From contig NC_135717.1 of assembly GCF_964656455.1 (NCBI RefSeq), positions 153,687,793 through 153,751,792 of the forward strand: DNA of 64,000 nt, in the 5' to 3' direction. The translations under genes were made by a program, and so were the position numbers. This document shows positions 23,201 to 45,300 of the stretch, one piece after another (position 1 is the stretch's first letter; every line of letters begins with the position of its first letter). The notes beneath the pieces were generated by a model, which did not search any database, was not told the origin of the DNA, and was given only the letters and a program-made list of their open reading frames with translations. Origin of the DNA: Halichoerus grypus. Taxonomy: Eukaryota > Chordata > Mammalia > Carnivora > Phocidae.

Positions 23201-26200
23201 AAAACAAAAACAAAAACAAAAACCACCCAGCCTATGCTGGGATTCAGAGGACTATAATTAAAAAAAGGCAGTTTGAAAATTGGTGAGAAGTATACATTTA
23301 AAAATATCTGGTCACCTCTATGTAAGCTAATCCCTGGATTCTTTGGTATCTATGTCCAAATATGCAAAACTTCACAGGGCCTACTCAGAAGCAGCCTGCC
23401 AGAGTTAAATATAATTGTTTCAATTTTGTTATGCTCTCATTTGAAAATATTTTTGGGTGATTAATGGGTGAATTTATCAAAATGTAAAAGTTATCTCTAG
23501 TAAAAAGGCTGCTGGTATCTTAAACATTAATCAACTATCTAACTTTAATGATAACATAGTTTATAAAATTGACACCCCCTCTTATATCCTGGAAAAAGAA
23601 ATAAATAAGATGCTCCTTACCCTGTTGAAGGCTACTGTGAAGACAATTGACAAATGTTGCTAATATAGTTGCCACATTCATCACTTGCCAACACTGGGCA
23701 AGACCAAGAGTAAAAAGTTCATTCCAATAAGCTTTCACCAATGATATGCTATTTTCTTGCCTATTAAAATGAAACACAACAAACACGTATCAGATATTAA
23801 CATGTATTTTATAAACTTTACAACCTTTTTTTTTTTTTAAGATTTTTATTTATTTATTTGAGAGAGAGAGCACGAGCAGGGGGAGGGGCAAAGGGAGAGG
23901 GAGAAGCAGACTCCCTGTTGAGCAGGGGCTGGATCCCAGGACCCTGAGATTATGACCTGAGCCGAAGGCAGATGCTTAACAGACGAGATCGGGCGCGTTC
24001 AGGGTGGTATGGCCATAGACGGCAGATGCTTAACAAACTAGGTCACCTAGGCATCCCGAAACGGTTTATTAAGCATGTTTCAGATGGGATATTAGTATCC
24101 CTATAAATGAGATACTGTGGATTTTGCTAGGAGAAATGAAAATAAGAATGGTCCCTTCCTGAACTTCTGAATACATCTCCAGAGCATGAGAGAGTAGAAA
24201 AAATATTAGAAGTCAGCCACAGTTTTAAAAACTAGATCATCCACTGATTATCCATTTGAAATCTGGCTAATAAGCTTCCCAGGTCTCAGCTGCCTAGCTA
24301 TATAAAATGAAGAGAAACTATACGTCCTATTCCCTGCTCTCATTATTATGAGATGTAAATATAAGAATTATGTGAATAAGGGATGACATAAAGTATATGC
24401 CAGGCACTATTCAAGGCACTGGAGAAACAGCAATAAACAGGATGGATTAAGTCTGCCTCCATGAAACAGAAGGTAAACATACAAAAATACCATTTCAAAT
24501 ATTTTATATATTATATACACATGTATATGGTTATATATACATTAGGTTTCTCTCAGGTAAGAAAAATTCTCCATTACTATAAAGCAGGATTATGAATTAA
24601 AAAACGGTGGGGGCGGGGGTGTTCAGGTAAGGTGGCTAGAAAAGGCCAGCCTGAGGGGCTGACATCTGAGTAGAGAAAGATGGGAAAGAACTTAAAAAAC
24701 AAAAAGATCTAGGGTATTGCCAATTTCTTATGGCAATCAAAATCTATTTGAAAGTGAAGTTTAAATGAAAAGAAAATCCGTATTTTCAAATCTCCATATA
24801 AAAAATGATGTAAAATTTACATCTTAAAATCAAAGAAAATAAGAGAGACCAAGATAATATTTTCATGTATCAGAAAAGACAGCTAAAATCCAGAATCGAG
24901 GATGGTGTGAGGAAATAAGCATTCATTCTCACGTAAGCATTGCTGAGGTGTTAACTGGCTCAACATCTTTTTGGAGGACAATTTAATAGTACCTCTCTAT
25001 AAAAAAACTAGAACATACACCCTCTGAGACTTAGCTATTCCACTTGTAAGAACCTATTTTATAGAAATACACAAAGTAGGCAAATTATACATACAATGCT
25101 ACAGTGCTTATTGTAGCACTGGATAGAATAACAAAGAAAATTAGCAAGAACCCAAATGTCTACTAATAAAGAATGAGTAAATCAATAAGAGATCCTGTAA
25201 AAGAGAATACTAGGCAACCATTCAGGAGAACAGGGTAAATTGACATGTGCAGACATAGGAAGACACCCATCTTTTAAGTATAAAAAGAAAGGCAAAGAAT
25301 AGGATATGCAAGTGTGTAATGGATTGTTAAAATATGGCACTGAAAAGGTCTGGTAGGACACCAAACTGTTAATTAGTGGGGTTAGTTACCTCTGGAGAAT
25401 GAAGTTTTACTTTATATTTCTATACTTCAGTGTTACTTTAAAATTTTATAAACAGGAGGAAAAGGTTAAAAGCAAACACGATGGGAAAGTTCACAGTAAT
25501 TCAGTTTTCACCTTAACCTCTGAGTCTGAAGTTTTAAAGAGGGAACAGCTAACCAAGGTAATTAGTGGACACAGGATAGGAAAATGAACAGAACCAACTG
25601 ACAAAAAAAAAAAAATCAAAGCTCTTTCTGGCCTGTGTTATACCTAGTAGGATGAAAGTACTTTGACATTGTTGTGGGAGACTCAGAGAAAAGATTGAGT
25701 AACCGTGCAGAGGATGAGGAACACCAAAATTGTTATGAGTACCCTAAAGGAAAAATGACGAAAAGTGGCAAATAAGGAATAAGCCACCAGATTACTTTGT
25801 TTCCAAAGGAAAAGTGAAAGAACTAAATATGGAGATTAATTGCAGAAAGATACATATATTTACATCTTCATCCAAAACAAAACCCCAAATATCCTTGTAG
25901 TATAGCTAGCTATGCTGTTCAAATGTTTTTAAAAAGTTCATTAGGAAAGGAAAACAGCAAGTCCTTTTTAAAGAGAAGGTTCCTAAGAGAATGAAGGAAA
26001 ACGAGCATTGATAATCTAGTTTGCAGTAGCACTGGATTAGATAATTTACATTCATCATCTCAGCTAAGTAGCCTCGCCAGCAAGAAAGCATTTCTGCTCT
26101 TAAATTATAGATGTAGAAATAGAGCCTAGTTAAGTAGCAAAGCTAGCAGATGAACAAATCCAGAATTTGAACCCAGGTGTTCAAAATCTATGCTTTTGTA

Positions 26201-29200
26201 TAACTCATTAAAATTTTAGCAAGTAAAATGCTGAAGTCAAATTTCTCAGTAGAGACTCCCCTTTACAGCTAGTATTTTGTGACAGTAAGGGCATGTTTGC
26301 TATCAACTTTTTTCTGTGAAAAACAAATAACTATTGTAATCACATTATACTACCTATTTTCTAAACATCTTTCCTTTGAAAAGCAAAAGGAGCTGGATGG
26401 GGTAGTTAAAGTATCAGTCAGGTACACTGAAACAATGCCAGTGTTAATTAATAGAGGCATTAGGTTGCATAACGGTAAATATGTCAACTTCTTTTACAAA
26501 TAGGTATAGGTATTTTTCTCTAACTAGTCTTCTATATTGTTAAGTTCATTAAAATATGTACATAGTACTCAGAATTAGAGATCAGATCATTGTTTATACT
26601 ATTTATTTTGATAAAATAAGATTTCCGAAGTCATGTATACATGGGGATAACCTAACCATTTGTCTTCCACGCAAATAAACCCAAGGCATTATACTTTACC
26701 TAGCAGCATGTGTTTGAAAGGAAAGCATGGTTCTTAGGGAAAAGTTGTCAGTGATACGGCAATAAAGCTGGTTTTATTTTTATTTTTTAAATTTTTTAAA
26801 AAAGATTTTATTTATTTGACAGAGCACAAGCAGGGGGAGTGGCAGGCAGAGGGAGAGGGGGAAGCAGGCTCCCCACAGAGCAGGGGGAGCCCAATGTGGG
26901 ACTCGATCCCAGGACCCCGGGATCATGACCTGAGCCAAAGGCAGTCGCCCAACTAATTGAGCCACCCAGGTGCCCAATAAAGCTGGTTTTAAACCCGCAT
27001 CTATAGTAAAACATTACTTTGTTTTAGTGGGATTTTAAAAGATTCAACTTTCAGATTTAGCATCTATGGAAGGTTTCTTAAATTACTCAAAAAATAAAGT
27101 CTCCTGTAGCAAATAGTGGTGGTTTAGAACTTTGGGTTATATTACGAGAATCCAGGTAGAGAGGACTGCTGACAAATCATGCCAAGTGCCTGTAACTGAA
27201 CTTACTACTGTGTAATCACCTAAATTATGCAGGTAGAAGTGAGAAACAACTGAATTCCTATAAGTTTTGAAACTACAAATCTTAAACAGAAAAGTAAAAT
27301 CCTTGTAAAATATAAAGGACTGTACAATACAGACAGTATTAACCACCCACTGTTTGAAAGGTTCTTGAAGCTACTGTTCTCCATTTAAATAAGTAATCAA
27401 AACAAACTCGACTTTTAGTAACTGATTAATGTTGCTTATCTGTTTCTCTGCAATACTAGGGCTTTGTTCCCAAGTTTTGGGTCTACGGATAAAAATGCAA
27501 CCAATGTCAGTTTCTAGGAGACTCAGAATAGCTTTTATTACCACTCAACAGAATTTCCCATCATCAGTACTTAGTCCTCTTCCATCTGATTAACTCGAAC
27601 TACAAACAATCTAGATGGCGACAGTGAGTTTATGTAGCGATTAATGGCCTCACATGCTACACCAATGGTTAATTCTGATTGCAAAGAATCCTGTGGCTGT
27701 TACATTAAAACCATTTTTCAGTACAGATCAGAGGGAAATGTGGCTGCCACTGTAAGACTGGATTATAACTGGAAACCTCAGGTTTTATTTTTGGTTTCTT
27801 TTTGGAGAATGTTTCCATAGGATAATCACACTTAACAGAAGTACTTAAGATCAACAGTGCTATATAAATAATTCAAAGAGTTCAAAGCACTCCCTAAAAA
27901 TCGTTTTTTTTTTTTTTTTTTTTACTATAATAGTTGATAGCCTATTATGACAAATATCACCAGATTACTTTTCAACACAAAAGTACTCCAGTTACAAGCT
28001 TAGGGAACTAAGTAAACCTAACCCTTTAAAATAAACTGCTAATATGTAAATTTATATCATATTTTAATTCTTTGTTAAAAAAAGCAGACTGGAGAAATTC
28101 TGAAAACTAAATGTTATTTTGAGAGAAAGGGCTAACAATAGTTCTAAAGGTTAACCATTCTAAATTAGGCTTTCAATCTATGTAACTATATTAGTTAAGT
28201 ATGTGATTTAATGCATGGTATACCCAACACCAAATTATACTGGGGTTCTATGTGTGCCTTTTTTTTTTTTTTAAAGGAGGCTCCATGGCCAGTGCAGAGC
28301 CCAACGTGGGGCTCGAACTCATGACCCTGAGCATCAAGACCTGAGCTGGGATCAAGAGCCCGACGCTTAACTGACTGAGCTACCCAGGCGCCCCATGCAT
28401 GCTTTTTAAAGTCATGACTGAGATATTTCTTAATCATATTAAATACTCTGTAAGAATAAAGGATGGACAGTATCATTCCTTTGGCAAATGGGAGAACAGA
28501 AGTATAGGATATGAAAGCACATTATTTATGAAATCATGTTGGTAAGTAGGGCCCTGTGACTAGAAAAATACTTTTCTAACTATGGACTTAACTTTTTCCA
28601 TAGTCTCTTTGCGTCTTCATACCAGTTACTTTAACACAATCTAAATAAATCTGGCAAACATCAGGTAATACAGATGTAATACAGATTACTGGTGTGTTTT
28701 TTGGTGGTAAGTATCTCCAAATTATCACTGTGGTACTATGGGGTCTACAATATCTCCCCCTTCCCCACTTTTTGTAATCACAGATTGGAAAACAACTGTT
28801 TCTATTTTGAAACATTCACTGTATGCAAGTTTCAGCTCCTTATGAACATGCCTGAGATGAACACTGAAAACAGTGGGGCTGGGAGGGAAACAACAGCCTA
28901 GGGCATACCTACAGCCTCCCTATCTTCAGGTCAAAGACAGCCTATTACAAATGCTGGCCATGATTTATCAGCTCCACTGCATATATTCCATTTGAATTAT
29001 TAACTCAGTCAAATTATGAAACATGGATACCCTTCCTACATAAAAATAATATAAGAAAATACTAACTGCCATAATTTGTCATATAAATAACAAAACTTTA
29101 TAATGCTATACCATTTTTTCCCTTTAATACAAATCCATCCAAAATAAAAGTTCTTGCTTAGTGTACATTTGTGCGGTAAAATCACATTTATACTCAAGGA

Positions 29201-42300: not shown

Positions 42301-45300
42301 GATTTTTGAGAAGTAATTCAACTGTTTAATCTTCATTTATAAAATATAGGTAGTGTATTTCATTTATTTTATAGGAATTTTATTTCATGATACTTAGGAG
42401 ATAGTATAGTTTAGTTGTTAAATGTACATTTTCTGAGGAAAAAAAAAACCTGCCAAGATTCAGATCCAAGTTCTGCCACTTATTAGTTATGTGACCTTGG
42501 GCAAGTTACTAAATCTGTTTACTCAAATGTAAAATGGGTAAGAGTAGTACCTAGTGCATGGTGTTTTACTATAGGAATAAATAATTCATATGCTATACAC
42601 AGAGTTAGGCATGGTGAGAGCTCAATCAATATTAGCTACCCTACTTATCACCTTAGTAGTTTAATCGGAAACTAAACTGGCATCTAGTTAGTTGTGCTTT
42701 TTTTAAAAAACCATGTTCAAACATACATACATGCATAGCATATAGGCATTCGATGAGTATCTTGTTGAATAAAAAATACATGCATATGTACACATTTCTA
42801 AACTGTTAGTTGGAAATCTGTAAATTAAAAAGCATATATATTGACATATTGTGTTAATTTTGACATACTTCTAGAGGTTGCCTGAATTCTTAAAATTATT
42901 TTCTCCTTTAAAGCTAATACATACAGTCTTGTCTCATTCCAAACGCAATACATCTCTGTAACCTGCAGTATTGACAGCGGTTTCGATGGTGTTTATTGAT
43001 AATACAGTCCTTTGATCCTCGACATGAATAAACTAAATTTTTTCGGATGCTTCTCTTAAAAAATCCTTTGCAGCCTTCACAGGTTACTGCTCCATAATGA
43101 CGCCCTAGAGACAAGATGTTTAAGGAAACACAAAAGTCACATATTTTAGAACAGAAGTAGAAATAAGCCCATTTCTTCCCTTTAAGTAACAATAATATAT
43201 GTAATGAAATGGAGATTTTTGAGTTTGTGACATGGAAAAATTTTTTAGGAGTTACTAAACAGAGAATGAAACAACCATATTCTTTTTTTTTTTTTTTTAA
43301 AGATTTTATTTATTTATTTGACAGAGAGAGAGCGAGCGAGAGAGGGAACACAAGCAGGGGGAGTGGGAGAGGGAGAAGCAGGCTTCCCGCTGAGCAGGGA
43401 GCCCGATGCGGGGCTCGATCCCAGGACACTGGGATCATGACCTGAGCCGAAGGCAGACGCTTAACGACTGAGCCACCCAGGCGCCCCTAAACAACCATAT
43501 TCTTTGATAAATATATTAAATAATATGAATTTTTAATTCTGTAAAGTAACTTTAACAATGATACGAAAAATTTCGGAAAGAGAAAAAACAAAACCACCCA
43601 TGACACCATAAGTAAAAACTATTTTCACTTCTGAGATCACTTACAAATTATAATTCTCTTATATGTTATATAAAGATACTCTATTCTGAAAACTCTGCTC
43701 GGAAAAAAGATACATCAATTAATATTTGAGCTATAGTATTCTCTTTTTTGAGGGGTGGGGTGGGAAAGGATAGAGGGAGGGGGAGAGGAAGAATCTTAAG
43801 CAGGCTACACGCCCTGTACAGAGCCTCCATGGGGCTTGATCTAACGACCCTGAGATCGTGACCTGAGCCGAAATCAAGGGTCAGACATTTAATCAACTGA
43901 GCCTCCCAGGTACCCCTATAGTAATCTGAAGAAATCTGTCACACTTTGATTAACCTACCACTTCACAGGCCATTTCTTTGATACAACATCTATTAAATTG
44001 AACATACTCTGGGAAAAGCTGTAGTGTGAGATTTTTGCAATAAAGCTATGGAAAAGATTAAAGATTATATATGAGTAAACATGGGTGCTTTCCTGGCATA
44101 AAATAACAATGAACATAACTAAAATGACATAACCCTGAGTACTAGTAATAGTACTTGGAGAAATGCTGCTCAGTTATGCACAGCATTAAATGAAGAGTAA
44201 CCAGAGCTTTTCCATCTCAATAATTTAAGTCACTCTATATTCCTGGACTAGCAACAGGGCTCAGCAGGTAAGTTAACAACTTAATGTTATGTATTATTAA
44301 GGACCACAACTCATTTTTAAGCAACTGCTTTGACAAAACTGATTTTACTTTCAAGAAAAATTTCCACATATTCAGTTTACATTTAAAAAGCAGAACTCTT
44401 GGGGTGCCTGGGTGGCTCAGTTGTTAAGCGTCTGCCTTCGGCTCAGGTCATGATCCCAGGGTCCTGGGATCGAGTCCCACATCGGGCTCCCTGCTCGGCA
44501 GGAAGCCTGCTTCTCCCTCTCCCACTCCCGCTGCTTGTGTTCCTGCTCTCGCTATCTCTGTCTCTGTCAAATAAATAAAATCTTTAAAAAATAAATAAAT
44601 AAAAATAAAAAGCAGAACTCTTTGGGGGACCTGGGTGGCACAGTTGGTTAAGCCCCTGACTCTTGGTTTTGGCTCAGATCATAATCTCAGGGTCAGGACA
44701 CTGAGCCTCGTGTGGGGCTCCATGCTCAGTGTGGAGTCTGCTTGAGTTTCTCTCCCTCTCTCTCTGCTCCCCCACCCGCCCAAATAAACAAATCTTTTTT
44801 TGTTTTTAAAGCAAAACTGTTTTTCACAATTCTTCAAAATATACATTTTATGTAATTGCAAGATCAAATTAAATTGCATTCAAGTAAAAAAAAATCTTTG
44901 GGTGAATAAAAAGCTTTGGGGGGAAATCAGTTAAATTTTATAGGCTTCAAATAGGAACTGTAAAAACAACATGCTCTTTTTACTTTCAGAAGAAGAAACA
45001 TGGTAGTGTGGTAGTTATTTTAACAACACAACACATACAGAAGGCTATTTTTAAAATGTTACCTGATGCTTTGTCTCCACATACTACGCAAAGATCAAAA
45101 ACCTTATTTGGTCCTTGGTCTGGGGAAGAATTATCTGTTAAGAGCTAAAGAAAACCCCCCAAAACAAAAAACAAAACAATAATTTGTTAATAACACTCTT
45201 AGTTAAAATGTAAAAGAACAGTCTTAATTATTGCTTTCTTTCTCATAAGTTATTCTGAAACTTTGAACTCTATTATGCATATATCAAACTACTGTTAATT

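Follow-up and report, generated by a model that had tools for sequence, protein, structure and literature searches.

A 5S rRNA fragment nested in a minus-strand SINEC of Halichoerus grypus, a probable tailless retropseudogene

Results

An interrupted SINEC beside an NR2C-family exon

We analyzed a stretch of 64,000 nucleotides of Halichoerus grypus DNA, hereafter the window. A SINEC on its minus strand, starting at 24057 and ending with its A-tail at 23826, is interrupted by a piece of 5S rRNA sequence and by one copy of a 15-bp direct repeat (Table 1). Read along that strand, the 37-base SINEC head (24057-24021) is followed by the 39-nt 5S piece (24020-23982) and then by a repeat copy (23981-23967) that duplicates the final 15 bases of the head, after which the SINEC resumes. 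We take the SINECs of the window to be of the type of caniform carnivorans. The host element also lacks 13 body bases that are present in 19 of the 21 copies used for our consensus.

An exon of the same strand orientation starts about 65 nt downstream of the SINEC; its frame (23759-23622) matches NR2C2 chains in the PDB, the best of them with an E value of 1.4e-12. Because this adjoining same-strand exon matches NR2C2, the insertion is most likely intronic, within an NR2C-family gene and in sense orientation relative to it. The gene is presumably NR2C1.

Table 1 Features at the locus, in window coordinates.
Feature	Position	Strand	Basis
Host SINEC, tRNA-derived, containing a CT-rich stretch and an A-tail	23826..24057	-	Alignment to 32 other window copies
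5S rRNA nt 1-39, probable tailless retropseudogene	23982..24020	-	38/39 identical; Rfam 5S_rRNA the sole match in the stretch, weak
5' copy of probable 15-bp target-site duplication, TGTTAAGCATCTGCC	24021..24035	-	Sequence identity of the two copies
3' copy of probable 15-bp target-site duplication	23967..23981	-	Sequence identity of the two copies
Adjacent NR2C-family nuclear receptor exon (context)	23622..23759	-	46-aa translation against NR2C2 chain 3p0u_A, E 1.4e-12

We aligned the host SINEC with at least 32 other copies from the window; of the 34 other BLAST rows, the short ones at 28394 and 31912 were left out. The consensus was built from 21 of the 32 copies, leaving out 11 with a small insert, and target-site duplications were sought in 31 other copies, leaving out the one at 43916. 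Twenty-four of these 31 have their own duplication at p <= 0.05 and the other seven have no clear one; the host SINEC has no recognisable duplication of its own (search p 0.70). Since 7 of the 31 others are likewise without one, the missing outer duplication is only a weak sign that the host element was interrupted later.

Elsewhere in the window, at about 244-355 on the plus strand, lies a short tRNA-like SINE with an A-tail and, unlike the other SINECs, no CT-rich body. It matches Rfam tRNA at 250-317 with 34.2 bits and has an apparent target-site duplication, AAGTGGATGAATATA / AAGTGGATGATTATA; ARAGORN found no tRNA gene at this SINE.

The interrupting piece is the 5' part of 5S rRNA

The piece agrees with 5S rRNA nt 1-39 at 38 of 39 positions; this identification rests mainly on direct comparison with a 5S reference sequence, the first 24 nt of which agree with a 5S primer listed in the excerpt of PMC3078939. 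The single change, C6>T, falls at a CpG, and four of the five CpGs in nt 1-39 are intact. The next two bases of 5S rRNA, U40-G41, are the same as those with which the repeat begins (TG), so that the 3' end of the piece could lie at nt 39, 40 or 41; with this ambiguous TG included, BLAST aligned 5S nt 1-41 with an E value of 4e-16. The piece thus ends at nt 39-41 of the 121-nt RNA, and the repeat follows directly, without an A-tail between them. A preliminary description of the locus had placed 5S nt 1-39 with a C6 to T change inside an antisense SINEC, with a start at nt 1, no poly(A), a TG shared with the repeat, and four of five CpGs surviving. All of this was reproduced, as was its stop at nt 39, within the ambiguity of the end.

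When we compared the 81-nt stretch 23960-24040 with Rfam up to E 10, only 5S_rRNA was returned, from model position 1 on and on the minus strand, with a weak score of 10.9 bits (gathering score 38; E 5.5). At gathering scores, Rfam found no 5S in the whole window. A single Rfam match at E <= 1 in 2 kb, ARRPOF at 24486-24650, lies far under its gathering score and was taken as chance. The next-best ungapped 39-mer anywhere in the 64-kb window matches 5S nt 1-39 at 22 of 39 positions, and none of the 32 aligned SINEC copies from the window carries a 5S piece. In a set of viral contigs, a pattern for the 5S junction had 0 hits, as did a SINEC pattern used as a control, and this outcome is therefore uninformative about other SINECs. 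The 5S piece probably has no function.

The junctions are known from the assembly and could in principle stem from an assembly or sequencing artefact. A chimeric read would hardly be expected to combine a CpG-site C>T change with perfect 15-bp flanking repeats, however, and we give an artefact next to no credence.

The locus has the anatomy of a tailless retropseudogene

According to the excerpt of PMC2912911, target-site duplications of full-length L1 peak at 14-16 bp, and the 15-bp repeat falls at this peak. Its two copies are identical at 15 of 15 positions, as the preliminary description had held, and an identical pair of 15-mers using all four letters within 80 nt occurs at just one other place in the window.

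Tailless retropseudogenes were reportedly described by Schmitz et al. in 2004. In the excerpt of Noll et al. 2015 (PMC5322556), a screen for such copies allowed at most 5 nt missing at the 5' end, a 3' truncation of at least 10 nt, no A-tail, a length of at least 30 nt, an identity above 69%, and a target-site duplication of 8-35 nt that is at least 70% identical. We applied these sequence criteria directly to the locus, and the piece falls within each of them: it starts at 5S nt 1, ends some 80 nt short of the 3' end with the repeat next and no tail, is 39 nt long with the one change noted above, and is flanked by a perfect 15-bp duplication. In the Rfam structure line, nt 39 falls within the apical loop of helix III (model positions from 35), so the piece is truncated within a loop. 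According to the PMC5322556 excerpt, the target pairs with the last 2-18 nt of the RNA; the 2-nt TG overlap, which the earlier description had also pointed out, is at the lower bound of this range.

The excerpt of Noll et al. 2015 (PMC5322556) further counts 555 human 5S tailless insertions, names Boreotheria (cow, dog, mouse, human) as the group in which the class is most abundant, and favours internal priming at single-stranded regions. In the excerpt of PMC2912911, just 3 of 25 ncRNA retrocopies have a poly(A) tail; the other 22 are called similar to tailless retropseudogenes.

The 5S piece is very probably a tailless 5S retropseudogene that L1, through target-primed reverse transcription, added to a pre-existing SINEC; L1 as the enzyme and the priming step are what we infer from the anatomy. 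In such an event, the L1-encoded endonuclease/reverse transcriptase would have nicked the existing SINEC, and the freed 3' end (bottom strand, ...TTAACA) would have primed internally on 5S rRNA in the helix III loop, pairing with at least U40-G41. Starting at nt 39, the enzyme would then have copied the RNA through to its 5' end; a second-strand cut 15 bp away, followed by fill-in, would have created the target-site duplication. The expected product is a 5S retropseudogene that is 5'-complete, 3'-truncated and tail-free. A more extended pairing, of the target with 5S nt 53-58 (TAAGCA, 6 nt), was considered and rejected; 6 nt is reached by 11% of shuffled repeats.

The cleavage site is the weak point of the structure. 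Set against the tailless/L1 target consensus TT/WAAAAWW in the excerpt of PMC5322556, the site TT/TGTTAA matches at the first three positions and not in the A-run, which is a poor fit. The absence of a good TT/AAAA motif would suit repair of a DNA double-strand break without L1 endonuclease, with 5S DNA or cDNA as filler and a duplication arising from staggered ends. Nothing about a DNA filler, however, would make it start where the mature RNA does, at nt 1, or end in a loop of that RNA, and L1 insertions typically leave a duplication of about 15 bp; we consider break repair very improbable. The reading as a tailless retropseudogene with a target-site duplication, proposed in the preliminary description, is supported by the structural features we tested except for this motif, and the age comparison leans the same way.

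The 5S piece appears younger than its host

The preliminary description had also suggested that the 5S piece arrived after the SINEC. If it had arrived with the SINEC, the two would be expected to show the same decay. The SINEC differs from the 21-copy window consensus at 9 of 99 non-CpG positions. Its head differs at 5 of 31 non-CpG and 4 of 6 CpG-type positions, in line with the diverged, CpG-depleted head reported earlier. A difference in age between the head and the body of the SINEC was considered and rejected (5/31 vs 4/68 non-CpG changes; not significant, p 0.13).

The 5S piece, in turn, has no change at 29 non-CpG positions, and the two repeat copies show no difference at 15 places (30 exposed bases). 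Taken together, the piece and repeats have 0/59 non-CpG changes compared to 9/99 in the SINEC (Fisher p 0.027), where 2 of the 59 bases form an intact CpG across the left junction (24021/24020) that was scored as non-CpG. Counting the repeat once gives 0/44 vs 9/99 (Fisher p 0.057), and dropping SINEC differences common to at least three other copies gives 0/59 vs 7/97 (p 0.045). The probability of seeing no changes in the 5S piece and repeats is 0.0082 if they are as old as the SINEC and 0.183 if they are younger, a difference of about 22-fold; these comparisons of age rest on small numbers and vary with the consensus.

CpG retention points in the same direction, at 4/5 in the 5S piece compared to 1/5 scorable sites of the SINEC in the consensus columns; when the SINEC sites are counted by hand relative to a reference consensus (4/5 vs 2/7), the difference is not significant (p 0.24). 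The claim of a later arrival is thus modestly supported by the non-CpG changes (p 0.027-0.057), whereas the CpG retention on which it had drawn is not significant alone. States common to both repeat copies do not prove the order of insertion, because the derived A in both (GCATC for GCGTC) also occurs in 6 of the 21 other SINEC copies and the leading T that they have in common could derive from 5S U40. On balance, these modest statistics favour an insertion of the 5S piece later than the SINEC, and it is from them that we infer the order of the two insertions.

An alternative is a double template switch while the SINEC was itself being inserted, in which reverse transcription would have left the SINEC RNA at TG, copied 5S rRNA from nt 39 through its 5' terminus, and returned 15 nt 3' of the point of departure, repeating 15 nt. 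The TG microhomology at the departure point and the exact run-off at 5S nt 1 would fit such a path, and the excerpt of PMC13174262 documents 5S/L1 chimeras, often with 5S nt 1-45. Yet in those chimeras the RNA is joined at the L1 5' end, with 5S typically antisense, and does not have one and the same element on either side (PMC13174262, excerpt). Two jumps would be needed, moreover, and the back-jump would have to coincide with the modal length of a target-site duplication. A template switch also predicts one age for 5S and SINEC, and equal age is disfavoured by the ratio 0.183/0.0082, with the ages differing at the p values given above. It would further give 5S and SINEC one target-site duplication in common; no outer SINEC duplication was found. 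We regard a double template switch as decidedly unlikely.

The SINEC sequence left of the repeat resembles 5S rRNA

Nine SINEC bases left of the repeat (24036-24044, minus strand) match 5S nt 31-39 in register at six positions, a level reached by 0.6% of the 9-mers in the window on both strands. Together with TG, these bases (GACCTAGTT) match 5S nt 31-41 in register at 8 of 11 positions. Three of the six matches, at head positions 15, 17 and 18, are substitutions that no copy in the 21-copy consensus set has. One could imagine that private mutations made the SINEC resemble 5S and so become a target, with annealing over more than 2 nt and trimming of the mismatched 3' end before extension; we think this unlikely. 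The likeness was noticed post hoc and may be due to chance.

Discussion

The locus has in common with tailless retropseudogenes a complete 5' end, a 3' end truncated in a loop, the lack of an A-tail, a target-site duplication, and 5S as the source. It is unlike the usual ones in that the 5S copy lies inside a SINEC, the priming overlap is minimal (2 nt), and the endonuclease motif is weak. We see it as a further example of a well-described class, and its nesting in a SINEC as the sole modest peculiarity.

Other combinations of 5S sequence with retroelements are known. In 5S-derived SINEs (SINE3 and others), 5S sequence is found within the retroelement. The present locus is similar in this respect, but no repeated family was seen here, only one occurrence among 33 window SINECs. 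Like the locus described here, the 5S/LINE-1 chimeras in the excerpt of PMC13174262 carry the 5' part of 5S truncated in the loop. They are, however, the product of one event at the L1 5' end, with 5S typically antisense, whereas here 5S is in sense orientation to the SINE, in mid-element, and has its own direct repeat. In the titles and abstract openings of the literature that we searched, we found no report of a 5S piece in mid-SINEC, which is no proof of absence; the excerpt of PMC9599045, from the literature on 5S rRNA and Can-SINEs, contains no such junction.

On its own, the locus does not change the understanding of the process; what it offers is a clean case of tailless 5S retroposition within a SINE of carnivoran type. 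Should an ortholog with an empty site be found, the insertion would be usable as a presence/absence marker, and a collection of nested insertions of this sort would help to date the retroposition of small RNAs relative to SINE subfamilies.
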